A stretch of 64,000 nt of DNA from the NCBI GenBank assembly GCA_913057245.1, contig CAJXNH010000002.1, positions 1 to 64,000 of the forward strand, in the 5' to 3' direction. The stretch is from an uncultured Phaeodactylibacter sp. (GTDB taxonomy: Bacteria > Bacteroidota > Bacteroidia > Chitinophagales > Saprospiraceae). Each line of letters opens with the position of its first letter. The first letter of the stretch is position 1. The notes beneath the pieces were generated by a model. The model searched no databases, was not told the origin of the DNA, and worked only from the letters and a program-made list of their open reading frames with translations. The position numbers were made by a program, and so were the translations under genes. Shown in pieces: positions 1,952 to 29,286 of this stretch.

Positions 1952-1984
1952 GCCCTAAACCTTATACCCTAACCAGAGCAAAAC

Positions 1985-3754
1985 ATGCAAATCAAATTAA
2001 CCAGCTTAACCATTGAGAATTATAAATCCGTCAAATCTGAGACCTTCAGGCTTTCGGATTATACGGCGCTTGTGGGGTACAATAATGCGGGTAAGTCTAA
2101 TATCCTCGATGCCTGTTACTGGCTCTTGAGAAGGTCAACCCTCCAAAAGGAGGACTTTAATGACCCTGCTCAGGCGGTCTTTGTCATTGGAGTTGTCGAT
2201 GGCATCACTACGGAAGTACTCGATACAATCCACCAAAAGCACCGCACGGCAATTGAGCCTTACATCGTGGATCATAAATTATGGATTCAGCGTAGGCAGG
2301 CAAGCCCGGGAGGGAGTGCCAGAGATATTGAACTCAATGTGAAACGGATCGATGAAGGTGGCTCTGAGGAGTGGGTAAGCAACCCCGGAGGAATTGATGC
2401 GGCCATACAGAAGTTGTTTCCTGAGCCCATTCACATAAAAGCTATGGATAACGCTGAGGAGGACGTGGGTAAATTCCAAACGACCACGACCATTGGCAAG
2501 CTCATCAAGGAGATCATTACGCCAATTGAAAAGAAATACAGCGGAGAAGTGGCCGATGCGATGAACAAGGTCAGCGCTATATTTGGAGCTGATGGTGAAG
2601 CAAGGGCGGAAGAGCTGTCTGCTTTCGACCGGGCGGCCAATGAAAAACTAAGCGCCCTATTCCCCGATGTAAACATCAAATTGGATATCCCTACGCCTAA
2701 AGTGGATGACTTTTTCAAGTCTGGGACGATCAAGGTGTATGAGCGGGCGGGGGATGAGGGCAAGGACATCCGCTCAATGGGTACCGGGGCGCAGCGCAGT
2801 ATCCAAATGGCGCTCATCCGCCAACTGGCAGAAGCCAAGAAGGGCGAAGGTGATGGTCCAACCCGTACACTGCTGCTAATCGACGAACCGGAGCTTTATC
2901 TCCACCCACAGGCCATTGAACAGGTGCGGGCAGCACTGAAAGCACTTTCTAAAGAAGGGTATCAGGTACTGTTCTCTACACATTCACCAATAATGGTCAC
3001 CAAAGAGGATGTACACGCTGCGATATTGGTAAGAAAGTGCGAAGAAAAGGGGACTTATTGCCGAAAACGGATTGAGGAGGCAGTTAGAAAAGTGGTGCAA
3101 GAATCTACCTCGCAGATGGATATTATTTTTGAACTCAGTAATTCCAGCAAAATTCTTTTCTCAGAGAACGTTGTACTGGCGGAGGGTAAAACAGAACGAA
3201 TATTGATGCCTAAGTTGTTTGAGGCAATTATTGGTGAATCTTTTGGGTTTTACAAATCTGCTTTCATTCCGCTTCATGGAGTAGGTAACACAGTCAAAAC
3301 CATGCAGGTACTTGAAGCCATGGATATGCCAGTCAAGGCATTAGTTGATTTGGATTTCGCCTTTGTACATGCTACAAGGAATAATCTTCTGGAGCCGGAA
3401 GACGAAGATATCGCTACTTGTCTTGAAATTTTCAAATCTCTGGAATCAAGTGGACAAATCAAACTGAAAAACGGGTTGCCTACAAAGTACAATAACACCA
3501 AGGCAGCTCATGGGTATTTTCTGATGGCTCAATCCTCAGATGCAACTACTCCAATTCAAAGACTTCACGACAAGCTCAAAGCACAGAATATCTGGATTTG
3601 GAAACAAGGCAGTATAGAAACCCCGTGCGGGCTAAATGGAAAAAGCAACGCTCATTGGATCGGTCTGAGCCAGCGCCTGGAGTACGAAAACTACAAAACA
3701 GTTTTACCACATTGGCAGGAGGTGGAACAACTTGTCAACTGGCTTACCGAATAA
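1985..3754 (+). CDS. OLD-family ATP-dependent endonuclease (AAA ATPase + TOPRIM)
   Basis: 589 residues. The N-terminal ABC/SMC-type ATPase has Walker A GYNNAGKSN at ~31-39. A signature-like region (RSMGTGAQRS) lies near 262, and Walker B LLLIDEPELYLHPQ near 297. The C-terminal half carries a TOPRIM domain: the glutamate in VVLAEGKTER (~398) and the acidic pair in LVDLDFAF (~455). OLD proteins couple ATP hydrolysis to DNA nicking or cleavage, and many act in phage defence (Gabija GajA is a relative). No GajB-like UvrD gene is adjacent, so this is not a simple Gabija pair. It is separated from the DUF499 gene by an inverted repeat at 3773-3812 and may form its own unit with DUF429. Confidence 0.88.
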   Translation: MQIKLTSLTIENYKSVKSETFRLSDYTALVGYNNAGKSNILDACYWLLRRSTLQKEDFNDPAQAVFVIGVVDGITTEVLDTIHQKHRTAIEPYIVDHKLWIQRRQASPGGSARDIELNVKRIDEGGSEEWVSNPGGIDAAIQKLFPEPIHIKAMDNAEEDVGKFQTTTTIGKLIKEIITPIEKKYSGEVADAMNKVSAIFGADGEARAEELSAFDRAANEKLSALFPDVNIKLDIPTPKVDDFFKSGTIKVYERAGDEGKDIRSMGTGAQRSIQMALIRQLAEAKKGEGDGPTRTLLLIDEPELYLHPQAIEQVRAALKALSKEGYQVLFSTHSPIMVTKEDVHAAILVRKCEEKGTYCRKRIEEAVRKVVQESTSQMDIIFELSNSSKILFSENVVLAEGKTERILMPKLFEAIIGESFGFYKSAFIPLHGVGNTVKTMQVLEAMDMPVKALVDLDFAFVHATRNNLLEPEDEDIATCLEIFKSLESSGQIKLKNGLPTKYNNTKAAHGYFLMAQSSDATTPIQRLHDKLKAQNIWIWKQGSIETPCGLNGKSNAHWIGLSQRLEYENYKTVLPHWQEVEQLVNWLTE

Positions 3755-3772
3755 TTATACAATTTAAAAAAC

Positions 3773-3812
3773 CTGGCTTTTTAATCGTACAAATATTGTA
3801 TGTTAAGGCCAG
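3773..3812. promoter_or_regulatory. Nested inverted repeat between OLD and DUF499 genes
   Basis: Outer arms CTGGC...TTTTTAA and TTAAGGCCAG enclose an inner TACAA-ATA-TTGTA repeat (3788-3800). It lies 20-60 bases before the DUF499 start and after the OLD stop. It could be an operator or a weak terminator of the upstream unit; the sequence alone does not decide. Confidence 0.4.
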
Positions 3813-3834
3813 CAATTAAGAAATATCCAACTTT

Positions 3835-6800
3835 ATGAAAACCCTCGGAGAAATTTTAACCCCGCGTCAAACCGTCTTTGACCAAAGCTATAAAGACGTT
3901 GTGCTCGACTTGACAGACCTTAACGAGGATAAAATTGACCCTGACCGGTTCTTTGCAGAGAACTATATCACCAAGGGTATGGAGCAGCTTTACCAGAGCG
4001 TCTTTAAGCGCATGGAAGGCACCATGGATGATGGGGTCTTCAAACTCACGCAAGCCATGGGCGGTGGTAAGACCCACACCATGATTGCAGTAGGCTTACT
4101 GGCTAAATACCCGGAGTACCGGAAACCGGTTATGTCTGAAATTTATGACACTTCATTCCGGGGCGCGGCTAAAGTCGTTGCCTTCTCCGGGCGTGAAAAG
4201 CCGAAGAATGGCATCTGGACCTTCATCGCAGAAAGCATCGGAAAGAAAGATGTCTTTCAGGAGCTCAACCGGGAAGGAGAACCTCCTGGACAGTCTGACT
4301 GGATTCGGCTGCTGCAGGGCGAGCCTACGCTGATTCTGCTGGATGAGCTGCCTGATTATTTGAATTATGCAGCAACGGTATCAAGTGGACTGGGCACCTT
4401 GGCCGATAAGACAGCTAGAGCGCTAACAACGCTACTCAATGCCCTGGGTAAAGAAGAACTATCCAATGTTGCACTAGTCATCTCCGACCTGCAAAATGCT
4501 TACGCTAAGGGCTCCGGGCAGATTGATGAGCTACTGGGGAACTTTGAGAAGGAAACCCGCCGCTTAGCCAAGAACTTTACTCCGGTAAGGCAAAACACCA
4601 ATGAGATCTATCACATCCTCCGCAAACGGCTGTTCAAAGAGGAGGTCGAGGAGGAGGTCATTCAGGAGACCGCAGCTGCTTACGGCAAGGCACTGGATCA
4701 GGTCGTCAAAATGGAATTGACCAATGAATCTCCCCGCCAACTGGAGGCGGCTATTCGTGAAAGCTATCCCTTCCACCCCTTTATGCGGGAACTCTATGCC
4801 CGGTTCAAGGAAAACCCGGGCTTCATGCAGACCCGGGGGCTGATACGGCTCATGCGGGCGATTACCGCACGCATGTTTGACCCTCAATCCGGTTGGGCGA
4901 AAGAGAGTTATCTGATCCACCCCTACGATATTGATGCCAATGACGATAGCGTAAGCGCTCAACTGAATGAGATCAACAATAAACTCATCAATGCGGTATC
5001 CAACGATATTGCTTCCGGAGGTAATGCCGCAGCCGAGAAAATCGATGAGGAGCTGGGCTCTTCCTTACCCACCAAAACCGCCAAGCTCATCTTTATGTCT
5101 TCCCTCAGTATGGTACAGGGAGGGCTCAAAGGCTTAAAGCTGACTGAAATTTATGCTTCTCTGGCTACACCAGGGATCGATATTTCTCAGTTAAAAAACG
5201 CCATCCTTCCCGCGCTTCGCGAACGCTCCTGGTATTTGCATGCGGATAAAAATGGGGCACTGCTTTACAAAGACGTTGCTAACGTATCTGCTAAAATCAA
5301 TACCTATCGAAAAGGCTACAATCCTGAAGCCATTCGCAAGGAAATGAAGGCGCAGATGAAGGAGCTTTTCGAGCCTAAAATGAAAGACCTTTACCAGCAG
5401 CTTTATATACTACCCGCCCTTGATGAAATTGAGGTGGATAAGGACAAAATCGCACTGGTTATTTTCCAGCCCTATGCTCAGGGCGGCTTACAACCGGAGA
5501 TGCAGGAATGGTATGAGAACCTTCGCTACAAAAACCGGGTGTTTTTTCTGACTGGTGACCAACAGTCTATCGACTCTGTATTTGAAAATGCCCGGAGTAT
5601 CCGTGCTGCTGAAGATGTAAAGGCAGAGTTTGATAGTGAGAAAGTACCTACCAATGACCCACAGTATCAGGAAATTGAGCAACTGATCGAAACCTACCGG
5701 TTCCGCTTCTACTCTGCGACAACTAATGTCTTTACCAAGCTCATTTTCCCTACCAGGCGCGGGCTGATGGATACCAACATCAACCTCCAATTTGAGAAAA
5801 ACAAGCTGGAAGGAGAAGAGCAGATCCGGCAGACGATGATCGAAAAGCGGAAGTTTACAACGGAAACCGAAAAAGAGGCTTTTCTCAAGCAACTGGAGCA
5901 GAAACTCTTTGAAGGCAATAAAGAGCGCCCCTGGGGTGAAATTATAGATGCTGCGGCTACCAATACCAGTTGGTTATGGCATAAGCCCAACGCACTCAGT
6001 CAAACCCGACGAGAGCAGGTTTCTAAAGACCACTGGCGGGAAGACGGGAACTGGATCAAAATTGGCCCTTTCCCCAAGCCACCTACCGATGTCCGCATTC
6101 AGGAAATGGGCAGGGATGAGAAAACCGGAAAGATGCGATTGCGCATTCAGCCGGTCCGGGGCAGCGTAGTTCACTATGCTTATGGTAAAAAGGTAAGTGA
6201 TAACGACCCGGTTTGGGATCCCAAAAAAGACCTGGAGACAGACGAACTGTATGTGGCATTCCTTTGTGTAGACCCTGAGGGTACACACGAAACGGGAGAT
6301 ACAAAGGTTTGGCAAAACACTATCGACCTAAAATATGAGTTCTACCCTCAGGGAGATGTATTCCGGGTAGAATTTAAAGTGGCGCCCAGAAATGCGGAGA
6401 TATTTTATTCTACCGATGGCAGTGAGCCAATTGAGTACGGCGGCACTTATGCCGACCCTTTTGAGGCAAAACCAAAAACCAAAATTCTGGCCGTTGCAAA
6501 AAAGGAGGAGCTGGAATCCAAGCGTATTGAGTTCGACCTGCCTGATATTGGGGCTTCAGCCGAACTGGAAATCAACCCGGTCACGCCGCTCACTTATAAA
6601 AAGCGATCGGAAATGACCACTACCGCTGAAACCTTCCACCTTATCAATCTGCTGAAACGCTTTGAAATTGAAGGGTTCGGTTTGGCCGTTAATGTGGATG
6701 GCGATCAGTGGCTGAGTATGGAAGTGGACGAAAGAGTAAGCTATAAAGCCGAGCAAATCGAAGAAGCCGTTAACTTTGTATGGGACAAGTTGCTGCACAC

Positions 6801-6921
6801 GGGTGAACTCAGCCTGGCGCTCTCCCGCCTGAAGTTCTCTACCGGGCAGCATTTTTTAGATTTTGCCAGAGAGGCGACTTTGGAATATAAACCACAGGAC
6901 ATTGAGCAACGCAACGAATAA
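3835..6921 (+). CDS. DUF499 AAA ATPase of a helicase-methylase-ATPase defence system
   Basis: 1028 residues. The Walker A motif GGGKTHT is at ~76-82, and a Walker B-like LILLDELPDYLNYA is near 168. The length and the run DUF499-DUF3780-DUF1156-SNF2 helicase are characteristic of a predicted anti-phage locus; the set was catalogued as Hma (helicase, methylase, ATPase), a name I give from memory. In this family the ATPase is thought to work with the methylase and helicase to recognise or process invading DNA, with no settled mechanism. The C-terminal ~250 residues have beta-rich, Ig-like composition (FKVAPRNAEIFYSTDGSEP). The next gene's longest frame overlaps its 3' end. Confidence 0.85.
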   Translation: MKTLGEILTPRQTVFDQSYKDVVLDLTDLNEDKIDPDRFFAENYITKGMEQLYQSVFKRMEGTMDDGVFKLTQAMGGGKTHTMIAVGLLAKYPEYRKPVMSEIYDTSFRGAAKVVAFSGREKPKNGIWTFIAESIGKKDVFQELNREGEPPGQSDWIRLLQGEPTLILLDELPDYLNYAATVSSGLGTLADKTARALTTLLNALGKEELSNVALVISDLQNAYAKGSGQIDELLGNFEKETRRLAKNFTPVRQNTNEIYHILRKRLFKEEVEEEVIQETAAAYGKALDQVVKMELTNESPRQLEAAIRESYPFHPFMRELYARFKENPGFMQTRGLIRLMRAITARMFDPQSGWAKESYLIHPYDIDANDDSVSAQLNEINNKLINAVSNDIASGGNAAAEKIDEELGSSLPTKTAKLIFMSSLSMVQGGLKGLKLTEIYASLATPGIDISQLKNAILPALRERSWYLHADKNGALLYKDVANVSAKINTYRKGYNPEAIRKEMKAQMKELFEPKMKDLYQQLYILPALDEIEVDKDKIALVIFQPYAQGGLQPEMQEWYENLRYKNRVFFLTGDQQSIDSVFENARSIRAAEDVKAEFDSEKVPTNDPQYQEIEQLIETYRFRFYSATTNVFTKLIFPTRRGLMDTNINLQFEKNKLEGEEQIRQTMIEKRKFTTETEKEAFLKQLEQKLFEGNKERPWGEIIDAAATNTSWLWHKPNALSQTRREQVSKDHWREDGNWIKIGPFPKPPTDVRIQEMGRDEKTGKMRLRIQPVRGSVVHYAYGKKVSDNDPVWDPKKDLETDELYVAFLCVDPEGTHETGDTKVWQNTIDLKYEFYPQGDVFRVEFKVAPRNAEIFYSTDGSEPIEYGGTYADPFEAKPKTKILAVAKKEELESKRIEFDLPDIGASAELEINPVTPLTYKKRSEMTTTAETFHLINLLKRFEIEGFGLAVNVDGDQWLSMEVDERVSYKAEQIEEAVNFVWDKLLHTGELSLALSRLKFSTGQHFLDFAREATLEYKPQDIEQRNE

Positions 6922-7528
6922 TAACGACCTACTCGGATTTGGTTTTGTGCCGGCGCAAAGTGAACACCACTTTGTAGTGGTGATCCCAAGGTCTCCCAAG
7001 CAGGAAATCACTGTGCATGAGCTGCAACAGTATGATCCTGATATGACGCTGGAAGGGCTGCAAATGCGGTTTGTAGGTCCTGCCTATACCGGTAAGGTAC
7101 GCATTAGTCAGGCCAGATGGAACCTGCTTGAGCGCTACCTCAAAAGCGAGTTCAACCAACGACTGCGCGATTCCGGGGCGACCAAAAAGAGTACCAACTG
7201 GAAAAAAGGTATCAACTACGTCCACCGCCTATTTGGCAAAGAACTGATGGTCCTGCTTTGGGCTATGGAGGAGGCGGATCCGCAGCGGGCTCCCCAAGCC
7301 GTCGAAAACTGGCTGGGGCTGCGCCCTGAAGAGCGGTGGTGGCTGTACACCATCACGAATGCCGCTACCGGGCACCCGGAAAACAGCCGGGGCCGGGGCT
7401 GGCGCAAAGCTCTCCGATTTGCCCTTACTGAAAACCCCGTACCCGAAGGGACGTACACGCAGGGCTTGCTTGATAAGGAAAAACTGATGCTCTTTGAAGA
7501 AGAAAATGAATACCCGGCCAAAAAATAA
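6863..7528 (+). CDS. DUF3780 protein of the Hma-like operon
   Basis: About 221 residues from the first ATG, which overlaps the DUF499 gene by 59 bases. A TTG at 6902 in the same frame would leave only a 20-base overlap and begins closer to the conserved opening GFGFVPAQSEHHFVVVIP, so the true start is uncertain. The family is small and found next to DUF499 and DUF1156 genes; its biochemical role is unknown to me. The protein is soluble and basic, with many Trp and Arg residues (ENWLGLRPEERWWLYTITNA), which would suit nucleic-acid or protein contacts. The stop is 5 bases before the methylase start. Confidence 0.75.
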   Translation: MPERRLWNINHRTLSNATNNNDLLGFGFVPAQSEHHFVVVIPRSPKQEITVHELQQYDPDMTLEGLQMRFVGPAYTGKVRISQARWNLLERYLKSEFNQRLRDSGATKKSTNWKKGINYVHRLFGKELMVLLWAMEEADPQRAPQAVENWLGLRPEERWWLYTITNAATGHPENSRGRGWRKALRFALTENPVPEGTYTQGLLDKEKLMLFEEENEYPAKK

Positions 7529-7533
7529 TCCCG

Positions 7534-10518
7534 ATGAAATCAAGTGCATTTATTGAACAGCAATTCCCGGTATCAAAAGTCTCTAAGGAAAGTTACAAGG
7601 AGCGAAAAGGAGTGCAAAGTCAGACTCTAACCCCATTGGGTAAATGGTGGGGGCGCAAGCCTTTGGTACTGGTGCGTGCCACTATCATCGGCTTATTATT
7701 GCCAGCTACCCAAGACCCGGAAAAAGATCAGGAAGTATTCCTGCGGCTGATGACGATGGATGAGGATGGGCTGCTGCGCCGCCGTAATAAAAATCTAAAG
7801 ATTAGCGAGGTGGCAGAGCTGCTGACTGAAGAAGAGCGGGCCCCTTACCTGCGAATTAATGATAGCGGGAACTGGGCCTGGAAAAAAAAGTTGGATGCGG
7901 AGCTCAAAAAGGAAGCGCAGGATATGGCTTTTCTGAAATTGTCCTACGATGAACAGTTAAAATACGCTGCCCGTCCGGAGCAGATTGACGGCCCCTCTTC
8001 CGAATCCTGGAAAGTCATTAATGCCCACTGTGGCACCACGGCTAGCAACTTGCAGGAATGGGTGCAGCAAATGGGAGAAAAACAATTTGGGCATACGCCT
8101 AAGGTCGGTGATGCATTCTGCGGTGGCGGTTCTATACCTTTTGAAGCGGCCCGCCTCGGCTGCGAGGCGTACGGCAGTGACCTGAATCCAGTGGCAGCCC
8201 TGCTTACCTGGGCATCCATTAATATCATCGGTGGTGGCCCAGAGATGAAAGCCGGAATCGAAAAAGCCCAGGAAGAAGTCTTCAGCGCTGTTGACCAACA
8301 AATTACCGATTGGGGCATTGAACACAACGAAGACGGCTGGCGGGCTGATGCTTACCTCTACTGTGTAGAAGCCAAAAGCCCGGCAACCGGGTATTGGGTG
8401 CCGCTTGCACCGAGTTGGGTGATTTCGGAAAAATACCGGGTCTGTGCAATACTACATCCTGACCACGATCACAAACGGTATGATATTGAAATTAAGACTT
8501 ATGCCGACAAGGGGACCTTTGAACAGGCCAAAAAGGGGACGGTACAGGACGGTCGGATGATATGTCCTGAAACAGGTAAAGACTATAATATTTCAACCCT
8601 TAGAGGGGATCGCCGTGTGGATGGTGAGACCCAATACGGGCTGCGTATGTGGGAAAACGAGGATATTGTGCCCCGCCCGGATGATTTGTTTCAGGAACGC
8701 TTATATTGTATCCGGTATTTGGAATATCACTATTTTGATTCGAAAACCAAGGAACGGTACACACAAAAACAGGCAGAGTCCCTTCCTGAGTTCAAAAAAT
8801 GGCTGGAGTCCGGAAGGTTAACTGTGAGTAACAGGCGACACTATATAGCCCCCACTGAGAATGATATCCAACGAGAAGCTAAAGTATTGCGGCTCCTCAA
8901 AGAACGCTTTTCTGAATGGCAGGAAAAAGGGTATATCCCTTCTGCTAAGATTCCAGATGGTGACAAAACCGAAGAACCTAAACGAACGCGAGGCTGGACG
9001 CATTGGCATCATTTGTTTAATGCTAGACAATTATTGATAAATGGTCTTTTTATTGCCTTTCTTGAAAATAGGATAAATGAAAGGAACTCCGAAGTCTTTT
9101 TAACTCTATCCGTATTAAAACTGTCAGACTGGCATAGCAGATTGTGTAGATATGGAGTAGGGGCTTCTAGAGAACTTACCGCTCAGACCTTTTTTAACAT
9201 GGCTTTCAACCCTCTTTATAATTATGGTTCAAAGTCAATCAACCAGTTATCAACCTCTTGGCACATTGAGCTCCCTCATAGAGCAACGATAAACGATAAT
9301 CGTTTTGGTAAAGGAACTGTTAATTTGATTGATGCAAGAAAGATAGAAAAAAGGTGCACATTTTGGGTCACAGATCCTCCCTATGCAGACGCCATTAACT
9401 ATCATGAATTAAGTGATTTCTTTTTAGCATGGATAAATAAAAGGATTCCTAAACTATTTCAAAGATGGTATAATAACAGCAAAGCCGCACTAGCAGTAAA
9501 GGGCAAGGGTCAATCCTTCAACCGCTCGATGGTGGAGGTCTATCGCAACCTTACCGCCCACATGCCCGACAACGGGGCGCAAGTTGTAATGTTTACCCAT
9601 CAGGATGCCGCAGTTTGGGCCGATCTGGCCCTTATCCTCTGGGCATCCGGGCTACGGGTCACCGCCGCCTGGACCATACAAACAGAAACCGATGCGGGTG
9701 GTATCAAAAAAGGCAACTATGTGCAGGGTACGGTCATCATGGTGCTGCGCAAGCAAACCTCGGATGAGATGGGCTTCCTATCCGATATACAAATGGATGT
9801 AGAACAAGGCGTGAAGGAGCAGATTGCCTTCATGCAGCAGCTGGATGATAAGGACGATCCCAATTTCGGAGACGCTGACTATCAGCTGGCTGCTTATGCG
9901 GCTGCCCTCCGGGAGCTTACCCGCTACAGCAAGCTGGACGTGGTCGATGTAGACTACGAGCTCAACAAAGAGCGGCAAAGTGGAGAAGACAATGAGATTG
10001 TAAAGATTATTGAGTCTGCCGTCCGGGTAGCGATGGATGTACTGGTCCCTAATGGCTTTTCCGAAGCCGACTGGCGCAAGCTCAGCCCGATCGAGCGCTT
10101 CTACCTCAAGGGGCTGGAAGTGGAACAAGGCGGCGAGTACCGCAGTGGTGTGTACACCGAAATGGCACGCGGCTATGGGCTGCGGGAATACCGCCATCTG
10201 CTCAAAGTCAAAGCCAATGAAACCCGGCTGATCACTCCTCTGGAGTATAAAAACAAAGATTTGGGCGGAGAGGACTTTGGCGGCAGCCTGACCCGGCAGA
10301 TCCTCTTTGCCATCCACGAAACCCACAAGGCAGAAAGCCCGGTGGAAGGCCGCAACTGGCTTTATCACGAGTGGCCAGACTACTGGAGCAGCCGCAGCCT
10401 TATGCTGACCATTTTGAAGTACCTCATCCTTAAAACCAAAGACATCAAACACTGGGCGAAGGATGTGGAAGCAGCTGAGCTGCTGAAGGGGTATTTGGAG
10501 AATGATACGATGGGGTAA
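7534..10518 (+). CDS. DUF1156 adenine-specific DNA methylase
   Basis: 994 residues. The N-terminal DUF1156 segment contains SQTLTPLGKWWGRKPLVLVR (~29-48). The SAM-binding motif GDAFCGGGSIPFEA starts at 192, followed by GSDLNPVAALL. The catalytic TDPPYADAINYHE lies near 613, so the SAM site and DPPY motif are ~400 residues apart with a specificity or structural insert between. Family knowledge predicts N6-adenine methylation of a target sequence for self versus non-self marking. The DNA of codons ~490-650 is markedly AT-rich (about 35% GC by hand count, against about 55-65% on either side). This looks like a swapped segment covering the presumed target-recognition region and the catalytic motif. 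Confidence 0.88.
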   Translation: MKSSAFIEQQFPVSKVSKESYKERKGVQSQTLTPLGKWWGRKPLVLVRATIIGLLLPATQDPEKDQEVFLRLMTMDEDGLLRRRNKNLKISEVAELLTEEERAPYLRINDSGNWAWKKKLDAELKKEAQDMAFLKLSYDEQLKYAARPEQIDGPSSESWKVINAHCGTTASNLQEWVQQMGEKQFGHTPKVGDAFCGGGSIPFEAARLGCEAYGSDLNPVAALLTWASINIIGGGPEMKAGIEKAQEEVFSAVDQQITDWGIEHNEDGWRADAYLYCVEAKSPATGYWVPLAPSWVISEKYRVCAILHPDHDHKRYDIEIKTYADKGTFEQAKKGTVQDGRMICPETGKDYNISTLRGDRRVDGETQYGLRMWENEDIVPRPDDLFQERLYCIRYLEYHYFDSKTKERYTQKQAESLPEFKKWLESGRLTVSNRRHYIAPTENDIQREAKVLRLLKERFSEWQEKGYIPSAKIPDGDKTEEPKRTRGWTHWHHLFNARQLLINGLFIAFLENRINERNSEVFLTLSVLKLSDWHSRLCRYGVGASRELTAQTFFNMAFNPLYNYGSKSINQLSTSWHIELPHRATINDNRFGKGTVNLIDARKIEKRCTFWVTDPPYADAINYHELSDFFLAWINKRIPKLFQRWYNNSKAALAVKGKGQSFNRSMVEVYRNLTAHMPDNGAQVVMFTHQDAAVWADLALILWASGLRVTAAWTIQTETDAGGIKKGNYVQGTVIMVLRKQTSDEMGFLSDIQMDVEQGVKEQIAFMQQLDDKDDPNFGDADYQLAAYAAALRELTRYSKLDVVDVDYELNKERQSGEDNEIVKIIESAVRVAMDVLVPNGFSEADWRKLSPIERFYLKGLEVEQGGEYRSGVYTEMARGYGLREYRHLLKVKANETRLITPLEYKNKDLGGEDFGGSLTRQILFAIHETHKAESPVEGRNWLYHEWPDYWSSRSLMLTILKYLILKTKDIKHWAKDVEAAELLKGYLENDTMG

Positions 10519-10564
10519 CCCGGTAGCATCAATATTGGTTTGAGGTTTCAAACATCAGAAGAAT

Positions 10565-13249
10565 ATGAAGCGATACTCTTCGCGGAGGCAGTCCCTCGGA
10601 AAGCACTTTTTTCAAGACCGACTGGCAAAAGCTATTCGATATGACCGTATTGCCGGGTACTTCAGCTCTTCTATGCTTGAAATTGCCGGCGAGGAAATTG
10701 AAAAAATGCCCGGGAAGGTCCGGATGATCGCCAATTCATCCCTGAACCCCCTTGATGTACAAACAGCCAAAGCAGCCAATCAGGCCCTCACACAAGAGTG
10801 GAAACAACAGATAGATGAATTATACAATGATCAGCTACAGGCGCGTTTTGTACGTTTGTACGAGCTGCTGAAGTCAGGAAAACTGGAAATCCGCATTCTG
10901 CCCGATCAGGCTTTTGGGCTCGTACATGGAAAGGCAGGTGTGCTCACCTTTGAAGATGGCAGTCAAACCTCTTTCCTGGGCAGCGCTAATGAAAGTAAAT
11001 CAGGCTGGACATTAAATTATGAATTGATCTGGGAAGACCCCTCCAAAGAATCAATTGCATGGGTACAAGAAGAGTTTGATGCCCTGTGGAATGACGGCAG
11101 AGCCTGTTCTTTATCCGAAGCTATAATTGTTGATATCAAGCGCCTTGGCGGCCGGAAAGTAGTACCTCTGGAGAAATGGCAGGAACAGCCTGAGCCTGAA
11201 GCTGCTATAGTTGAAAACCCAATCTACCGCGAGCACTTCGGGCTATGGGGGCACCAAAAATACTTTGTAAAGTTAGCTTATGAAGAGCACCGGTCTGGCC
11301 GGGGAGCCAGGTTTGTACTGGCCGATCAGGTAGGCCTGGGGAAGACCGTACAATTGGCAATGGCAGCCATGCTCATGGCATTGCAGAGCGATAAGCCGGT
11401 GTTGGTCATTGCTCCCAAAACTTTGGTGTATCAGTGGCAGGATGAACTACTCAAACTCCTGGGGCTCCCGTCAGCGGTTTGGGACCACAACTCCTGGATA
11501 GATGAAACCGGACACGTGTATGTCAATAACAATCCGGAAAAAGCCATCTTAAAATGCCCGCGGCGGTTTGGCATCATCAGTCAGGGGTTGGTAATACACG
11601 GCTCTAATGTCGTACATCGTCTACTCGACAAAGATTATGAATGTGTAATTGTGGACGAGGCACACCGCTCCCGCCGCCGTAACCTTAAAGAAAAAGGACA
11701 GGAAGAACCAGCGGAGCCCAATAATTTAATGAGTTACCTGCTGCAAATTTCTCAACGGACAAAAAGCATGTTGTTGGGTACAGCCACCCCCGTCCAATTA
11801 TACCCAATAGAAGCTTATGATTTGCTTTGTGTATTAGGTGCAGGTGCCCCACATGTGCTTGGTAATGATTTCTCTTTTTGGCGAACGCAGTCTAAATCCT
11901 CCGGGTTCAAGCTCGTAGACGGCACCGCCCGTACATTCCGGGACAAAAGCAGGCTTTGGGAATGGCTTCGCAATCCATTTCCTCCGGCTTATGAAAATGA
12001 TCGTTTGTTTGGGCGAATACGGCGTGCCCTCAATATGTCTCCCACGGATTACGTCATCAAGCCCAATATCATCGATAAGCTCAATCCGGGATATAAGCGC
12101 TCCATTGAACGGGAAGAGGGGTTGTTTGAGCAGTACAACCCTTACGTCCGGCACATCATACGCCGTACCCGTACGTTTCTGGAAGAAACCATCAATGAAG
12201 AGACCGGAGAGCCTTACTTGCAGAAGGTAGAAGTTGAACTCTACGGTGAGGAGCCTAAAGATGCCATTCCCCTGAAAGGTTATCTGGAAGATGCCTATCA
12301 GACCGCAACGGAATTTAGTAAGTCGCTGGGTGAAGTCATGAAGGGGGCAGGTTTCATCAAGACTCTGCTGCTAAGGCGTATCGGTAGTAGCATGGAAGCC
12401 GGACGTAAAACAGCCATTAAAATGTTGGGCAATGACTTTGACTTCAGCGAGGAAGAGGACATTGAAGACGAGCCAAAATCCGGTATTGCTGCAAGAATTG
12501 GACCTGAGCAACAAGAAATCTTGAATCGCTTAATCCGGCAACTCGACGAGTTTACAGACTCGGACCCCAAATTGGAGCAGTTAAATACATTGCTCTTTTC
12601 CTATGGCTGGAGCGACTTAGGTTGTATCATATTTAGTCAATATTACGATACGGTACAGTATTTCTCAGAACTGGTAGCCAAGGAACACCCCGACAAAAAA
12701 ATAGGTGTATATGCAGGTGCCGGAAAATCTGGTGTTTGGCACAAAGGGCTATATCAAAGAGTGGAAAAGGATACTATTAAACGAGCCGTACAAAATGACG
12801 AGATTCGGATCCTTTTCGGTACCGATAGTGCAAGTGAAGGCTTAAACCTGCAAAGGCTTGGGACGCTGATCAATCTTGACTTACCCTGGAACCCTACAAG
12901 GCTTGAGCAGCGCAAGGGCCGGATACAGCGCATCGGGCAACGACTGGATAAAGTCAAAGTTTACAACATGCGTTACCGAGGCACAGTGGAGGACCGAGTG
13001 CATGAACTGCTTAGCAACCGCCTAAATAATATCTTCAGCATCTTCGGCCAGATCCCGGATATTTTGCAAGATGTATGGGTGGATGTTGCCATGGGTGAAA
13101 AAGAAAAAGCGCAGGAGCGCATCCGGGAAGTAGAAACCCGTTCCGCGTTTGAAATCCGATATGACCGGATTGATAATACGGATTTTGAGTCTTGCAATCG
13201 GGTGCTGAATAAAGTGGATGTGCGGGAGGCGTTGGGAAAGGGGTGGTAG
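10565..13249 (+). CDS. PLD-domain SNF2-type helicase
   Basis: 894 residues. The N-terminal ~150 residues form a phospholipase-D-like domain with an HGKAG...GSANES HKD-type motif (H121, K123; SAN at ~140-142). Only one HKD motif is seen, so an active nuclease would need to dimerise. The superfamily 2 helicase core follows: Walker A DQVGLGKT (~254-261), DEAH at 364-367, GTATP, and motif VI NPTRLEQRKGRIQRIGQ near 795. Such PLD-SNF2 proteins occur in DISARM-like and Hma-like defence loci, where the motor is thought to translocate on target DNA. It is transcribed with the methylase, 46 bases downstream. Confidence 0.87.
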   Translation: MKRYSSRRQSLGKHFFQDRLAKAIRYDRIAGYFSSSMLEIAGEEIEKMPGKVRMIANSSLNPLDVQTAKAANQALTQEWKQQIDELYNDQLQARFVRLYELLKSGKLEIRILPDQAFGLVHGKAGVLTFEDGSQTSFLGSANESKSGWTLNYELIWEDPSKESIAWVQEEFDALWNDGRACSLSEAIIVDIKRLGGRKVVPLEKWQEQPEPEAAIVENPIYREHFGLWGHQKYFVKLAYEEHRSGRGARFVLADQVGLGKTVQLAMAAMLMALQSDKPVLVIAPKTLVYQWQDELLKLLGLPSAVWDHNSWIDETGHVYVNNNPEKAILKCPRRFGIISQGLVIHGSNVVHRLLDKDYECVIVDEAHRSRRRNLKEKGQEEPAEPNNLMSYLLQISQRTKSMLLGTATPVQLYPIEAYDLLCVLGAGAPHVLGNDFSFWRTQSKSSGFKLVDGTARTFRDKSRLWEWLRNPFPPAYENDRLFGRIRRALNMSPTDYVIKPNIIDKLNPGYKRSIEREEGLFEQYNPYVRHIIRRTRTFLEETINEETGEPYLQKVEVELYGEEPKDAIPLKGYLEDAYQTATEFSKSLGEVMKGAGFIKTLLLRRIGSSMEAGRKTAIKMLGNDFDFSEEEDIEDEPKSGIAARIGPEQQEILNRLIRQLDEFTDSDPKLEQLNTLLFSYGWSDLGCIIFSQYYDTVQYFSELVAKEHPDKKIGVYAGAGKSGVWHKGLYQRVEKDTIKRAVQNDEIRILFGTDSASEGLNLQRLGTLINLDLPWNPTRLEQRKGRIQRIGQRLDKVKVYNMRYRGTVEDRVHELLSNRLNNIFSIFGQIPDILQDVWVDVAMGEKEKAQERIREVETRSAFEIRYDRIDNTDFESCNRVLNKVDVREALGKGW

Positions 13250-13300
13250 GGACTCAACAGGCTATCCTGACAGACATTTAAAATCCAAAACCAAGAGTTT

Positions 13301-14431
13301 ATGTACACCATAGACAAGCATAAAAACCGAATCAACCGCCTCGAAGAGCGCACTTTTTCCGACTTGGCATTTAAAGAACGAGAGCATTTACAGGAGTGGA
13401 TCGCTCAAGAGCCTACTTGCCTGGGTGAAGATTTGCTAATCATACAAAAGGAGTTCGACGGCTTTCAGGATACGAGGGAGCGATTGGACTTGCTTGCGGT
13501 GGATAAGCAAGGGAATCTAGTAATTATAGAGAACAAACTGGACGACAGTGGGCGGGATGTCACCTGGCAGGTGCTGAAGTATGCTTCCTACTGCAGCAGC
13601 CTGAGCAAAGATGACATTCGTAGCATATTCCAGCAATATCTAAAGCGCATTGGCAGTGATGCTGACGCAGAAGAAATCCTGGCCGAATTTTTGGAAAAGG
13701 AAGATTTCTCGGAAGTACAGCTCAATCAGGGTTACGCCCAGCGTATTATGATGATCGCTGCCAAATTCAGGAAAGAGGTAACTTCCACCGTCCTGTGGCT
13801 GATGAACTTCAATATGCGGATTCAGTGCTTCAAAATCACGCCCTACAAATTTGGAGAGCAACTTTTCCTAAAGATTGATCAAATACTCCCCGTACAGGAT
13901 ACTCAGGATTATTCAATAAGCATGGCCACCAAGGCACAGGAGGAAATCGCCACCCAGGAGAACTTAAAACAGCGTCACCACGTCCGATTGGATTTTTGGT
14001 CCGCTTTTCTCAAGGCAGCCAACCAAAAAAACAGCCTCTTTGCAAATACCTCCCCCTCGAAAGACAGCTGGATCGGTCTTGGTATCGGGATGAGCGGCGT
14101 GACCATAAATCTGGTGGTTTCCAAAAACTACACCCGCAGCGAAGTCTACTTTAACCGGGGTTCTCAGGAAGAAAACAAGTGGTGCTTTGACTTCATGAAA
14201 GAGCAGCAAACTAAAATAGAAGAAGAGTTTGGGGAGCCCCTAATTTGGGAGCGGATGGATGACAAAGTCACCTCCCGTATTAAAACCGAGCGAACGGATG
14301 TGTCGCTTTATGAGAAAAGCGATTGGGAGCAGATGATTGATTTTCTGATTGATGCTTCAGAGCGGATGGTGAGGGCGTTCAAGGGACCAGTGCGGGCGTT
14401 GAATAAGAAGTTGAAGGAACAAAACCAGTAA
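13301..14431 (+). CDS. PD-(D/E)XK nuclease-like DUF4268 protein
   Basis: 376 residues. The N-terminal domain (~35-130) has the restriction-fold pattern: D in RERLDLLAVDKQGN, then VIIENKLDD (E-x-K) two strands later, as in the DUF91/NucS-like group. The C-terminal half matches the DUF4268 pattern (FWSAFLKAAN, the SWIGLGIGMSGVTINLV core, helical end EQMIDFLIDASERM). I infer it is the cutting partner of the methylase/helicase operon; single-gene DUF4268 proteins also occur alone. A degraded second copy of its C-terminal end lies at about 18830-18940, on the far side of the two DUF262 genes. Confidence 0.72.
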   Translation: MYTIDKHKNRINRLEERTFSDLAFKEREHLQEWIAQEPTCLGEDLLIIQKEFDGFQDTRERLDLLAVDKQGNLVIIENKLDDSGRDVTWQVLKYASYCSSLSKDDIRSIFQQYLKRIGSDADAEEILAEFLEKEDFSEVQLNQGYAQRIMMIAAKFRKEVTSTVLWLMNFNMRIQCFKITPYKFGEQLFLKIDQILPVQDTQDYSISMATKAQEEIATQENLKQRHHVRLDFWSAFLKAANQKNSLFANTSPSKDSWIGLGIGMSGVTINLVVSKNYTRSEVYFNRGSQEENKWCFDFMKEQQTKIEEEFGEPLIWERMDDKVTSRIKTERTDVSLYEKSDWEQMIDFLIDASERMVRAFKGPVRALNKKLKEQNQ

Positions 14432-14562
14432 AGTATGGATGCGAAGAGTAGACCGAAGTCTTGGGATAGGCTCCAGGTAGAGCAACCTAATACCCCATTG
14501 CTGCAATTCCGGTGTATGGATATGGGATGGGCGTTATTGACGGGGAAAAAGTGGTTGGGGAG

Positions 14563-16377
14563 ATGAATGAAGATGGAAATAGCGTAGATCTGTATGATAT
14601 TGGTTTTTATTCCATCGGAGCACTAATAAAGGCTATTGGTGATACTTCATTTTATGTGGCTCCATACCAACGGGGGTATCGCTGGGGCGAGACAGAAATC
14701 AATTATCTGCTCAATGATATTTGGCAGGCTGCTGACAACCGTAAATATAGCCTTCAGCCAATTACAGTGGTTTCGAATACTGTTGAGGGTGAAGAAGTTT
14801 GGGAGTTGGTAGACGGTCAGCAACGACTTACTACGATTTATCTGATTTTGACTGTACTGAATAAACGGCTCAATAAACAGTTGCCTTCTTATAGTATCAG
14901 GTATAACACCCGCGAAACAACTGCTAGTTTCCTTCAAGATATTAGAGAGCACTCCTTACTAGAAGATTGGCAAGAAACGGAAGAAAGCCCGGTTGAACTT
15001 TGGGAAGACTTTACTGGAAAGAATCCCAAAAGAGATAATATTGACAATTTCCATTTATTCCAGGCTTATCTTCTAATCAGCAAATGGTTTTCATTAAAAG
15101 GTTTAGAGGCCGCAGAAAAACTGGCGGCTAAACTATTGGATAACACTAATCTGATCTGGTATCCAATTGCTAAAGACGGTCAGTCGGTTGAAGGTCGTTT
15201 TATCAATATCAATGCCGGAAAAATAAAGCTTACCGATGCAGAATTAATAAAAGCACTGTTCATTTTGAAGCTCCAACGAAATGATGATGATTCATGGGAC
15301 ATCCAACAGTATAAGATAAAACAGTTGGCCGAAGAGTGGGATGCCATCGAAAAACAGTTGCATGATGACGACTTTTGGTATTTCATAAATCAAAAGGACA
15401 CTGATTCCTATCAAACCCGTATAGGTTTATTATTTGATATCCTTTCATCAAGGCGGGAAAACCAGAGTCCGTATGATTGGTTTGCGGAGGAAGAAGACAG
15501 GTTGGTTTGGGACGACTTACTAAATCTCTATCATAGACTGACAGAATGGTATAGTGATTTGGAGGTGTACCATAAAGTGGGTTTTCTCATTAACGCCGGT
15601 ATAAAGCAGTTAGAAGATTTGGTTAAAGAAATGAAGGATATCCGTAAATCGAAAATTAAACAGAAGCTGGACTGGTATATTCGTGAAAAAATGAAAAGCA
15701 CTAAGCAAAGAGACGGTCAGCGCCTACCCCGCTTTAGTTTTGATTACCTGAGTTATGAAGATGATAGAAATGATTGCCAGATATTCTTGCTATTGTACAA
15801 TATCAAACTTTTAGAAAGCACTTTCCCGGGACAAAGGTTCCCATTTCATTTGTACCGAAGTGAATCCTGGTCCCTTGAGCACATTCATCCGCAAAATCCA
15901 AATGCCATAAAGAGTAAAGAACACGCAAAAGCATGGCTAGCTGATTTTTCAGAAAGAGCAAATGAACTGGAAGGCGATCAAAAGCGATCATTTGAGGAAA
16001 CCATTACTCGGCTTCAGAGCGGAATAGAGAACATCGATACAGCCAATATCACTCAGGAGATTCAGGACAAACTGTCTGAATTTACGGAGAAGTATAAGGA
16101 TGATTTCGACTTACATGGTATTCTGAATTTGGCTCTGCTCGACAAACAAACGAATAGTGCCTTAAGCAATTTACCCTTCAAAGAAAAACGGAATTCGATT
16201 CTTAAGCATGAAAACCGACGATATATCCCCTTAGGCACCTTGAATTGTTTTTTAAAAAAGGCAAGTAGCAAAGATCATTTACAACTGGAGTATTGGTCTC
16301 GTTGTGATATGGAAGGGTACTGTGATTCTATCAAAAGCGTATTAAAAGAATACTTACCAGATGAAAAGGAAGCATGA
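14563..16377 (+). CDS. DUF262/DUF1524 protein, GmrSD type IV restriction family
   Basis: About 604 residues from ATG 14563. An upstream in-frame ATG at 14512 would add 17 poorly conserved residues; I prefer the second because DUF262 proteins usually begin just before the IGALIKAI strand. The DUF262 domain has the ParB-like motif PYQRGYRW and the diagnostic VDGQQRLTTIYLIL (nucleotide-dependent). The C-terminal DUF1524 HNH nuclease has SLEHIHPQNP near 440. GmrS/GmrD proteins cleave DNA carrying modified cytosines such as glucosylated hydroxymethylcytosine. The stop overlaps the start of the next DUF262 gene (ATGATG). Confidence 0.82.
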   Translation: MNEDGNSVDLYDIGFYSIGALIKAIGDTSFYVAPYQRGYRWGETEINYLLNDIWQAADNRKYSLQPITVVSNTVEGEEVWELVDGQQRLTTIYLILTVLNKRLNKQLPSYSIRYNTRETTASFLQDIREHSLLEDWQETEESPVELWEDFTGKNPKRDNIDNFHLFQAYLLISKWFSLKGLEAAEKLAAKLLDNTNLIWYPIAKDGQSVEGRFININAGKIKLTDAELIKALFILKLQRNDDDSWDIQQYKIKQLAEEWDAIEKQLHDDDFWYFINQKDTDSYQTRIGLLFDILSSRRENQSPYDWFAEEEDRLVWDDLLNLYHRLTEWYSDLEVYHKVGFLINAGIKQLEDLVKEMKDIRKSKIKQKLDWYIREKMKSTKQRDGQRLPRFSFDYLSYEDDRNDCQIFLLLYNIKLLESTFPGQRFPFHLYRSESWSLEHIHPQNPNAIKSKEHAKAWLADFSERANELEGDQKRSFEETITRLQSGIENIDTANITQEIQDKLSEFTEKYKDDFDLHGILNLALLDKQTNSALSNLPFKEKRNSILKHENRRYIPLGTLNCFLKKASSKDHLQLEYWSRCDMEGYCDSIKSVLKEYLPDEKEA

Positions 16378-18773
16378 TGGAACAAACTTTTTGGCAAATT
16401 ATTGATAAGAGTAAAATTGAAATCCCGGAAATTCAGCGTGATTATGCTCAGGGGCGTGATACCCCCAAAGCTAATGCTATCAGAAAGAAGTTTATTGACG
16501 ATCTGATACGTTGCTGTCTTCAACAAGGACAACCTCTTCATTTAGACTTCATCTTCGGTCAATCAATCCACAAGAAAAGTATCGCCCAGTTTGAGAAGAA
16601 CAAGGAAAGCTTAAAGCAAATGGTTGCTGTTCTGGAACGTTTTAGTGCTGAACAGGGAATTGAGTTTTATTACAATATTGGTGCCAGTCCAGCAGAGGCT
16701 GTTAATGACCGTACGCTTATCCCTATTGATGGTCAACAGCGGCTGACAACCTTATTCCTTTTTCACTTATATGTAGGCGCTCAACTTTCAAAAAAAGAAA
16801 TTCAAAAGCTAAAAAGTTTTGAATACAAAACCCGGAAGAGCTCTACAAGTTTCATAACCAAATTAGTAGAGCATGTACAGCTTTTAAAACAGAGTGACGA
16901 TTGTAGAGAGGCTAACCTATCAGAGAAAATCAGAGATCAAGCCTGGTATTTCAAGTTTTGGGACAAAGACCCTACTGTTGCAGGAATGTTGGTGGTTCTG
17001 GATGAGATACATACCCAATGCAAAAAAAAAGTCCAGCAAAAGACCTTTAACAGGATATGGGAGAATTTGGTCAATGAAAATCCTAAGTATGTTTCATTCG
17101 ATTTTTTTGACCTCAAGGAAGAAGGTCTTGAGGATGACTTATATATAAAAATGAACGCGCGCGGCAAGCCATTATCTGATTTCGAAAATTTTAAGGCTTG
17201 GCTGGAAAACAAGTACAAGGAATCAAAAGAAATCAATAATGTAGGGTGGCTAATTAAACTGGATAAGGAATGGTTAGATATATTCTGGTCGGAAAGGGCT
17301 GATATTGAAAGTGTGGATCAACACTACTTGTCCTTTTTTAACACCCTCGCCTTATTCAAAAAAATTGAAATGACTGAAGGAGGGGATGAAATTGATGAAG
17401 ACTTAAAAGCATTAATTAATCGCCTTGGTTCTTATAAATTTATTCCTACATCCTTTTACGAGGACAAGGATGTGCATTCGGTTGATTCAGTCAATTGGTC
17501 CTTTTCTGTGCTTGAAATGTTAAGTAGTAAGGAAGACAGGAGTGAATTGAATAGAATAATTGGAGAAGTTTGGACAGATACATTCTACAAACCTGAGAAA
17601 GACAAGCGCCAAGATTTTACATCAGCCTTACTACTCTATTTTTCTGGATTAAACCTGTATCACAAGGTATTTGTGTATGCGGTGCTAATTTATTTTCGTC
17701 ATATTGCAAAGCCTGTAATTGAATTTTCCGAAGAGGAAAAGGAGAACTTTCAATCGTGGCTGCGAGTAGCTCGTAATATTATTTACAACTCTCGAATTGA
17801 TAACAACATAACATACATAAATGCCATTCAGTCGATTAATAAGTTCGATGCTAATGCTGTTCTCAACATAAATGAATTCCTTAAAAAAGATGTCCTTAAT
17901 GAACCATGGATTAGATTTTTTAACCAAAAGCAGCAAAAGGAAGAAGGAGAAAAGGTCAAGCTGGGCTTAGAATGGCAGGAGGCCTTGTGCGAAGCAGAAA
18001 ATCATTTTTACTTCTTCGGTCAAATCGGGTTTATTATTGAATTATCAAAAAACGAGCAAGGGGCAAGCCTTGAATCTTTTAAAAAATATTGGCACAGACT
18101 GAATCAGTTATTCACCACGGAGCACTTAGACAACGGTCGTTTCATCATTCAACGGGTTCTTTTAGTAAATGGAGATAGGAATGCTTCCTGGATGAGGCCT
18201 CTGACCTCAAATAGAAAGAGTTTCCATCGTTCCATTAGAGCTAACAGCAGACAGCGTGATGAAAACTGGCGATATTTATTTGTCAAAGATGGTAATGGGA
18301 ACAGATTGACGTTGCTTAAAGAACTGTTAGACGAATCTGATTGCTCCACAAGTTCATTAGAATCTATTATAAAGGAAAAGGGAAAAACTATTCGCGATTG
18401 GAGAATTTATTTCATCAGAGAGTCAAAGCTTTTTGGTTACTGTAGTCAGGCATTAATCAATTGGGGAAGTGAAAGAAATATCAGGCTTTTAGGGTCTTCA
18501 AGATTGAGCCATTACCATAGTGAACTTAGAATTACCGCTCTACATGAGTGGCTTAAAGACAAAGCAATAGACTCTAAACTAATAAAAGTAAAAAGAGGCT
18601 TACACAGCAGTTTACTTGAAATTGGAGATACTCAGTCCAGGTGTAAGGTTGAATATAAAATTGATAACCAAGTATTTCAGTATCAACAAAATGATGGTGA
18701 CGAGTTTAAAGCAATTGACAAAGACTTTGTCTATTTCAAAGAACTACAAGAGTTTAATCAATTAGAACTATGA
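16374..18773 (+). CDS. DUF262 protein without a visible HNH domain
   Basis: 799 residues, starting inside the previous stop. IQRDYAQGRD (~20) and IDGQQRLTTLFLFHLY (~117) mark a DUF262 nucleotide-binding domain. A long helical and charged C-terminal region follows, in which I find no HxxP or HNH pattern. Paired DUF262 genes, one with and one without the nuclease, suggest a two-subunit enzyme in which this one regulates or recognises. The DNA is clearly AT-richer than the DUF499 to helicase genes, so the pair was probably acquired separately and inserted into the operon. Its last codon overlaps the pseudogene ATG at 18770. Confidence 0.75.
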   Translation: MMEQTFWQIIDKSKIEIPEIQRDYAQGRDTPKANAIRKKFIDDLIRCCLQQGQPLHLDFIFGQSIHKKSIAQFEKNKESLKQMVAVLERFSAEQGIEFYYNIGASPAEAVNDRTLIPIDGQQRLTTLFLFHLYVGAQLSKKEIQKLKSFEYKTRKSSTSFITKLVEHVQLLKQSDDCREANLSEKIRDQAWYFKFWDKDPTVAGMLVVLDEIHTQCKKKVQQKTFNRIWENLVNENPKYVSFDFFDLKEEGLEDDLYIKMNARGKPLSDFENFKAWLENKYKESKEINNVGWLIKLDKEWLDIFWSERADIESVDQHYLSFFNTLALFKKIEMTEGGDEIDEDLKALINRLGSYKFIPTSFYEDKDVHSVDSVNWSFSVLEMLSSKEDRSELNRIIGEVWTDTFYKPEKDKRQDFTSALLLYFSGLNLYHKVFVYAVLIYFRHIAKPVIEFSEEEKENFQSWLRVARNIIYNSRIDNNITYINAIQSINKFDANAVLNINEFLKKDVLNEPWIRFFNQKQQKEEGEKVKLGLEWQEALCEAENHFYFFGQIGFIIELSKNEQGASLESFKKYWHRLNQLFTTEHLDNGRFIIQRVLLVNGDRNASWMRPLTSNRKSFHRSIRANSRQRDENWRYLFVKDGNGNRLTLLKELLDESDCSTSSLESIIKEKGKTIRDWRIYFIRESKLFGYCSQALINWGSERNIRLLGSSRLSHYHSELRITALHEWLKDKAIDSKLIKVKRGLHSSLLEIGDTQSRCKVEYKIDNQVFQYQQNDGDEFKAIDKDFVYFKELQEFNQLEL

Positions 18774-18940
18774 GCCAAGCATATCGGGAAGAACACCAGA
18801 TTTATAACCGCGTCCTCCATCTCTTCTAGGATCAGATGATTACTTGCCTTTTTGAGACATCAGAATGGATGACAAAGGTTTTCAAAGACCCCGTTCTGAA
18901 ATTGAATAAAAAATTGAAGGCATTCGATCAAGGAACATAA
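18770..18940 (+). pseudogene. Scar of a second DUF4268 gene (C-terminal end)
   Basis: An ATG overlapping the previous stop opens 19 codons (MSQAYREEHQIYNRVLHLF), then TAG. The same frame goes on for 37 codons to TAA at 18938. That second part aligns residue by residue with the end of the 13301-14431 protein: DQMITCLFETSEWM against EQMIDFLIDASERM, then VFKDPVLKLNKKLK against AFKGPVRALNKKLK. The nucleotide sequences are clearly diverged, so this is not a recent duplication. It looks like a deletion product joining the start of one gene to the tail of a DUF4268 gene. Confidence 0.75.
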
Positions 18941-19895: not shown

Positions 19896-19922
19896 CGAGC
19901 CCCCCTCAAACAGCAGGACAAA

Positions 19923-22397: not shown

Positions 22398-22469
22398 TTG
22401 TCACACTCTTCTATGCCATCCGTTTTCCTGATAAGAGCTATGCTTACCCCCCAAATTCTAGCCAGTGGC

Positions 22470-29284: not shown

Positions 29285-29286
29285 TC

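Follow-up and report, generated by a model that had tools for sequence, protein, structure and literature searches.

The Type-2 BREX-related (BR; BREX, bacteriophage exclusion) system was defined by Rakesh and Krishnan in January 2026, with DUF3780 as its marker (PMC12839542). In that account the HKD domain of the helicase is the proposed primary nuclease and effector, the methyltransferase is assigned as adenine-type, forming N6-methyladenine, an Fn3-like domain precedes the C-terminus of the DUF499 protein in 53% of the published taxa, and auxiliary PD-(D/E)XK, GmrSD-type HNH and OLD-TOPRIM effectors are reported beside BREX and BR systems (PMC12839542). Complementary protection by BREX and the enzyme BrxU has been demonstrated (PMC8565348), and TgvAB of Vibrio cholerae, which lies within a type I locus, consists of two DUF262 proteins, one of them with DUF1524, that are both required and that restrict hypermodified phages (PMC11411939). 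According to a survey of the GmrSD family, DUF4268 occurs in homologues of GmrSD, and DUF262 genes are found in the vicinity of other GmrSD genes (PMC4619093). The present contribution concerns a defence locus within the window, a stretch of 64,000 nucleotides of contig CAJXNH010000002.1 (positions 1 to 64,000, forward strand) from an uncultured Phaeodactylibacter sp. (assembly GCA_913057245.1). The locus combines a four-gene core (positions 3835-13249) with the gene of a DUF4268 nuclease and a pair of DUF262 genes, and we consider it probable that it is a Type-2 BREX-related restriction-modification system with separately acquired auxiliary effector modules. The direct results are its gene content, the conserved catalytic motifs, the conservation of core and pair, and the finding that many relatives of both modules lie among type I restriction genes.

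The core encodes, all on the + strand, a DUF499 AAA+ ATPase whose C-terminal region contains an Fn3-like domain (3835-6921), DUF3780 (6863-7528), a DUF1156 DNA methyltransferase with DPPY and FCGGGS motifs (7534-10518) and an HKD (PLD) nuclease domain fused to an SNF2-type helicase (10565-13249). Judged by these predicted proteins it is the best fit to the published Type-2 BR system, with which it has all four components in common (PMC12839542). The ATPase, the methyltransferase and the helicase lie within one locus, DUF3780 is a standalone protein (Pfam, 156.4 bits), the HKD nuclease forms the N-terminus of the helicase (PLDc_2, residues 45-175), and the Fn3-like domain precedes the DUF499 C-terminus (Fn3_assoc 845-894, CHB_HEX_C_1 844-896). 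A preliminary description of this DNA had labelled the core Hma-like. This identity was rejected: HmaC, HmaB and HmaA scored 151, 99 and 123 bits, against 655, 952 and 805 bits for the PADLOC models DUF499, DUF1156_MTase and PLD_Helicase (DUF3780, 138 bits). The best-fitting published subtype is Type-2 BR (PMC12839542). The equivalog cut-offs of the NCBIfam anti-phage families were passed by two of the four proteins, the methyltransferase (DUF1156_antiphage, 1342.8 bits, cut-off 1000) and the helicase (phospholipD_antiphage, 1219.3 bits, cut-off 1100), and missed by the DUF499 protein (DUF499_antiphage, 791.8 bits, cut-off 1200) and DUF3780 (147.8 bits, cut-off 200). The same description had found the core to lack an obvious cutter, which does not hold, the HKD domain being the published primary effector of Type-2 BR (PMC12839542); its residues H121, K123 and N142 are invariant in all four aligned helicases.

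For comparison with other core loci, an alignment of the helicase was searched against named genomes; only the best 80 of the 509 relatives that it retrieved were used, so that the sample leans to close relatives. Together with three loci from a phylum sample these make up 83 core loci, many of them cut by contig ends. Whole-genome searches cover 50 core-bearing genomes; for the other 33 of the 83 only the locus was searched. The order of the core genes is identical in all 55 loci that hold all four. Extra genes were counted as same-strand open reading frames (ORFs) of at least 100 amino acids in 79 deduplicated loci (the near-duplicates L019, L040, L056 and L057 being excluded). They occur between methyltransferase and helicase in 27 of 77 loci and between DUF3780 and methyltransferase in 6 of 53. 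Of the 65 loci that extend 1 kb or more past the helicase, 25 have such ORFs shortly downstream of it, and 8 of 44 loci have them shortly upstream of DUF499 (an artefact in L036 excluded). The contents of these slots include AAA_21/OLD-like, Schlafen AlbA, Mrr, RloB, GmrSD and PIN proteins. Among the 55 slot proteins the Pfam families matched most often were AAA_21 (6), AAA_15 and SMC_N (5 each), Schlafen AlbA, HATPase_c_4 and AAA_23 (4 each), and more rarely Mrr_cat (3), GmrSD_N (2) and RloB (2). In an order sample of 298 genomes, three have DUF3780, the window's own among them. The other two, which belong to the window's family, carry different cargo and show neither the DUF4268 gene nor the DUF262 pair; one of them is probably identical with the record L010. 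The reading of separately acquired modules is favoured because the cargo varies in this way among core loci, because both modules are frequent in type I loci and because the pair differs from the core in guanine-plus-cytosine (GC) content.

A two-gene insert of similar size was observed in the methyltransferase-helicase slot of L010 (8032-9998), L011 (2712-4756) and L190 (12492-14554). The first insert gene of L010 matches AbiLi with 319.6 bits, and the insert of L190 was judged by gene sizes alone. The DUF499 gene of L190, a same-family relative, is in two pieces with a 431-residue ORF between them (1967-6947) and looks disrupted.

The gene behind the helicase (13301-14431, + strand) encodes a PD-(D/E)XK nuclease composed of a NucS/EndoMS-like N-terminal domain and a C-terminal DUF4268, and the earlier domain call was thus borne out by Pfam and PADLOC matches. 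The PADLOC model PDC-S11, which has the status of a defence candidate only, matches the protein end to end (539.6 bits, residues 1-373 of 375); candidates of this kind were derived by guilt-by-embedding by Payne et al., according to PMC12988326. In the N-terminal half, D63, E77-x-K79 and Q90 are invariant in all nine aligned relatives. The predicted structure (mean predicted local distance difference test score, pLDDT, 85.6) resembles most closely the catalytic domains of EndoMS/NucS (Z 10.5, root-mean-square deviation (rmsd) 3.0 over 111 residues), and the NCBIfam NucS family matches with E 3.2e-7, which is below the family cut-off and covers only profile positions 122-210 of 250. A NucS-type catalytic domain is therefore common to both proteins; the N-terminal domain that is joined to it in EndoMS/NucS is not found in the DUF4268 protein, the remainder of which is DUF4268. 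A Foldseek search with the models of this protein and of the second DUF262 protein returned no match at E 0.001 or better, and a sequence search of the PDB with the DUF4268 protein found no relative. A YbjN/secretion-chaperone fold was considered for the C-terminal DUF4268; the Z values of about 6 to 7 are at a level common in such comparisons, and no fold is claimed.

Relatives of this nuclease are frequent beside type I restriction genes. On plasmids 368 records matched, 294 of which cover at least 80% of the query, mostly at 42-50% identity and in one case at 29.6% (in a listing spread over the matches). In 7 of 14 plasmid contexts, comprising all seven at 44% identity or more, the DUF4268 gene has hsdS on one side and hsdR on the other, and no more than one further gene lies in between; on a Roseomonas plasmid (29.6% identity) it lies behind hsdM and hsdS. 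Type I genes also adjoin the DUF4268 gene in five of nine viral-collection contigs, two of them near-identical, and are absent in the other four; a phage collection yielded one DUF4268-type record, which covers about half of the protein. The repeated seat beside hsdR suggests that the nuclease acts as a helper or back-up to ATP-driven restriction. One might go further and regard DUF4268 as a portable sensing or recruitment domain common to unrelated nucleases (PD-(D/E)XK, and HNH in GmrSD-DUF4268 proteins), nucleases that travel in or beside the modification-to-motor-nuclease slot of ATP-driven restriction systems and are activated by modified DNA or by a block of the motor through phage anti-restriction proteins; we regard this as speculative and rather unlikely.

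The nuclease might instead be the main cutter of the core, in place of a weak HKD nuclease. Its catalytic positions are conserved in nine of nine relatives, as given above, and a NucS-type nuclease with a different C-terminus occurs beside the core in 3 of the 83 loci: in L013 within the methyltransferase-helicase gap, adjoining an Mrr gene, and downstream of the helicase in L038 and L040, two near-identical loci. Against such a replacement, the HKD residues are invariant in the four helicases, a NucS-type gene was not found in the covered stretch of the 80 remaining loci, and the closest plasmid relatives examined come from type I loci in which hsdR is present. We therefore hold a replacement of the HKD nuclease to be very improbable, and retain the DUF4268 nuclease as a putative accessory of a Type-2 BR core.

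The window's own genome contains, on another contig (L186, 6719-9227), a GmrSD-DUF4268 protein that is split between two frames, with DUF4268 at its end; a weak HsdM-like match and an HSDR_N match lie about 10-14 kb away on this same contig. This arrangement agrees with the fusions reported in the GmrSD family survey, in which, as far as its available text goes, DUF499 does not occur, unlike in the window locus (PMC4619093).

The two genes that follow encode DUF262 proteins. The first (14512-16377, + strand) combines DUF262 and DUF1524 (Pfam GmrSD_N 99.5 and GmrSD_C 27.2 bits), with DGQQR at residue 101 and the HNH motif EHIHP at 456, and thus has the features of the type IV enzyme GmrSD, namely DUF262 with DGQQR and a DUF1524 HNH domain. 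The second (16374-18773, + strand) matches GmrSD_N with 83.8 bits and has DGQQR at 119, with neither a GmrSD_C match nor an EHIHP-type motif. What had been described as a GmrSD-type pair hence consists of two GmrSD-type DUF262 proteins and not of a GmrS and a GmrD gene, an HNH domain being recognisable in the first protein only. Modelled with a mean pLDDT of 67 and a poor C-terminus, the second protein best matches SspE (Z 12.5, rmsd 4.0 over 200 residues within 1-266); longer alignments to SspE and DndI have rmsd values of 10 to 20, and BrxU scored 4.6.

The pair is conserved as a unit. A profile of the second gene matched 12 of 395 phylum-sample genomes, the window's included, and in all 11 others it is directly preceded by a gene of the first type (as two ORFs in L141). 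The same order, the HNH gene first and its HNH-less partner second, was found in 9 of 9 viral-collection contigs and hence at 20 of 20 unselected sites. The pairs L118-L120 had been chosen for adjacent hits and were left out of this count; L119 and L120, from two Lamprocystis records, are near-duplicates, and their first gene has EHV instead of EHI.P. Three further candidates for tandem DUF262 sites (L121, L122 and L123) proved on inspection not to be pairs. Six of 13 genome loci have type I restriction genes in the vicinity of the pair (L118, L136, L137, L142, L143 and L144, the two Lamprocystis records counting as one), as do 4 of 9 viral-collection contigs (L170, L171, L176 and L178), some of these by weak matches. 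TgvAB is the closest described arrangement, as adjacent DUF262 genes, DGQQR in both proteins and DUF1524 in one only are common to both (PMC11411939). BrxU in BREX likewise is a DUF262-DUF1524 enzyme inside a methylation-based operon; BrxU is a single protein, whereas the window system has two (PMC8565348). By analogy, the pair is probably a modification-dependent auxiliary effector.

We then asked how often the two modules recur beside the core. The exact combination did not, an outcome that the preliminary description had named in advance as counting against its proposal: a profile of the DUF4268 part alone gave no match adjoining the core in any of the 83 other loci, nor did two DUF262 genes adjoin the core in any of them, and recurrence therefore gives no sign of a functional integration with the core. 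Pfam PF14088 (DUF4268) matched 6 of the 50 core-bearing genomes at E 0.001, five of them above the cut-off, and a recurrence of DUF4268 with the core was not borne out; the nucleases of L013 and L038 and the genomes of L038 and L040 have no PF14088 match. The general category does recur, in the form of the three NucS-type genes mentioned above and of a single, Pfam-confirmed DUF262 gene in 6 of 83 loci (L006, L010, L012, L036, L062 and L078), among which only L006 has a Pfam DUF1524 match. Within the 50 genomes a DUF262 gene lies in four loci, compared with 0.35 expected from genome-wide DUF262 numbers (P 0.0005, a figure that ignores island clustering and the relatedness of the loci).

These results also bear on the possibility that a defence island has brought core, DUF4268 nuclease and DUF262 pair together by chance, as independent tandem systems with their own promoters. 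The absence of the exact gene set from the 83 other core loci, the deviating GC content of the pair, the occurrence of the pair apart from the core in genome loci and viral-collection contigs, and the continuation of the window with DarT and macro-domain genes and a UvrD-type helicase would all be expected of such an island. The genes share one strand, however, with gaps of only 51, 80 and -4 bases, extra genes inside core loci recur both in our sample and in PMC12839542, and DUF262 genes exceed expectation in the locus (four of 50 genomes against 0.35, P 0.0005), even if this figure is generous given island clustering and locus relatedness. We regard mere coexistence as a tenable but not favoured explanation. 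A Type-2 BR system with acquired effector modules has to be reconciled with further observations that weigh against it. Besides the missing recurrence of both modules, 5 of the 59 loci that reach 1 kb or more upstream of the methyltransferase have no DUF3780 that could be detected; type I neighbours are not listed in 6 of the 14 plasmid contexts of the DUF4268 gene (L153, L154, L156, L157, L158 and L160), two of which are a 42% Klebsiella form and some of which match about half of the protein; and no type I gene lies near the DUF262 pair, within the stretch read, in 7 of 13 genome loci and 5 of 9 contigs. In TgvAB the DUF262-only gene tgvA comes first, the reverse of the order in the window (PMC11411939), and the pair, likened to TgvAB by arrangement and not by direct sequence comparison, is better called TgvAB-like than filed as TgvAB. 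Finally, the source genome is a metagenome-assembled genome given as 61.9% complete.

With GC contents of 0.394 and 0.368 the DUF262 pair is compositionally foreign to the locus (core genes 0.482-0.530, DUF4268 gene 0.468). Directly behind it, inside a gap of 261 bases, lies the C-terminal remnant of a second DUF4268 gene (18830-18931, + strand; tblastn E 1e-8, 18 of 34 residues identical to the end of the intact DUF4268 protein). Because of the deviating GC content and of this remnant we assume that the pair arrived separately. The data fit an arrival next to or together with another DUF4268 gene that was subsequently lost, in an order of events that we infer.

The biochemical steps proposed here, like a shared expression of the genes, are derived from homology and published work. 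Host DNA would receive N6-methyladenine marks from the methyltransferase. The DUF499 ATPase together with DUF3780 and the HKD-helicase would detect DNA that enters without such marks, translocate and cut it. Phages whose DNA has bulky cytosine modifications would presumably escape the core and be covered by the DUF262 pair, a putative two-protein, nucleotide-dependent type IV enzyme whose DUF262 domains would sense hypermodified phage DNA, to be cut by the HNH domain of the first protein. The DUF4268 nuclease would cut DNA as well, probably as a back-up or in the manner of a type IV enzyme, and an OLD-TOPRIM protein encoded upstream is a possible further back-up effector. That modification-based and modification-dependent systems stand side by side here was already suggested in the preliminary description, and by analogy to BREX with BrxU (PMC8565348) and to TgvAB (PMC11411939) this idea receives support. 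The complementarity proposed there is plausible, and for BREX, a related case, it has been demonstrated before. Taken together, the genes look like a layered, explainable defence of known kind rather than a new system.

The seven genes from DUF499 to the second DUF262 gene lie on the + strand at the coordinates first assigned to them, and are separated by -59, 5, 46, 51, 80 and -4 bases; the 51-base spacing before the DUF4268 gene was correctly given. The true start of DUF3780 may be later than the TTG at 6863. The same-strand run was right for these genes and too short in extent, as it begins upstream with a DUF429-like gene (1088-1951, + strand; weak Pfam match of 20.8 bits, below the cut-off of 23), the operon membership of which is uncertain, and, 33 bases further, the gene of an OLD-type ABC ATPase with a TOPRIM nuclease domain (1985-3754, + strand). 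The latter matches PADLOC Old (781.6 bits, residues 3-587 of 589) and Pfam OLD-like_TOPRIM, contains the motifs GYNNAGKS, LLIDEPE, AEGKTE and VDLDF, and ends 80 bases before DUF499; it may be part of the operon and a possible auxiliary effector. No terminator-like site was found on the + strand in the gaps 13250-13300 and 14432-14511; overall, 25 such sites compare with a shuffle mean of 21.2 (standard deviation 5.1), which is no excess over shuffles. The gene spacing permits a single transcript, which is a prediction only.

The locus is real and well-formed and belongs to a known kind; what is unusual is how its passengers, each of them known, are combined. Three points may be new: the association of the DUF4268 nuclease with type I loci, the placing of the HNH gene first in the pair, and a passenger pool that type I and BREX-related loci have in common. 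A literature search on DUF4268 found no description of the type I linkage in the sources as far as they were accessible, and this linkage is no more than an added detail, because PADLOC already lists the family as candidate PDC-S11. Neither the name DUF4268 nor DUF262, both represented in the window locus, occurs in the main text of PMC12839542. The findings suggest that the auxiliary nucleases of BREX-related and type I loci form one exchangeable pool. With four core genes, one nuclease and one two-gene module, the locus is a compact test case for whether layered restriction is cooperative or merely co-located, and the constant HNH-first order offers a handle for the biochemistry of two-protein type IV enzymes.

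Further genes surround the locus. Upstream, the frame of an ORF at 431-880 runs for about 68 codons beyond its stop and reaches the DUF429-like gene (431-1087); it may be a broken gene. Downstream, 261 bases behind the second DUF262 gene, a radical SAM gene is followed after 27 bases by the gene of a UvrD-type helicase with an N-terminal extension (19035-27047 with the gene beyond), and beyond this helicase lies a low-GC protein of 1525 residues on the opposite strand (22470-27047). At 28640-30339 lies a DarTG-like toxin-antitoxin pair: DarT, a thymidine ADP-ribosyltransferase, and, after 2 bases, a macro-domain protein.

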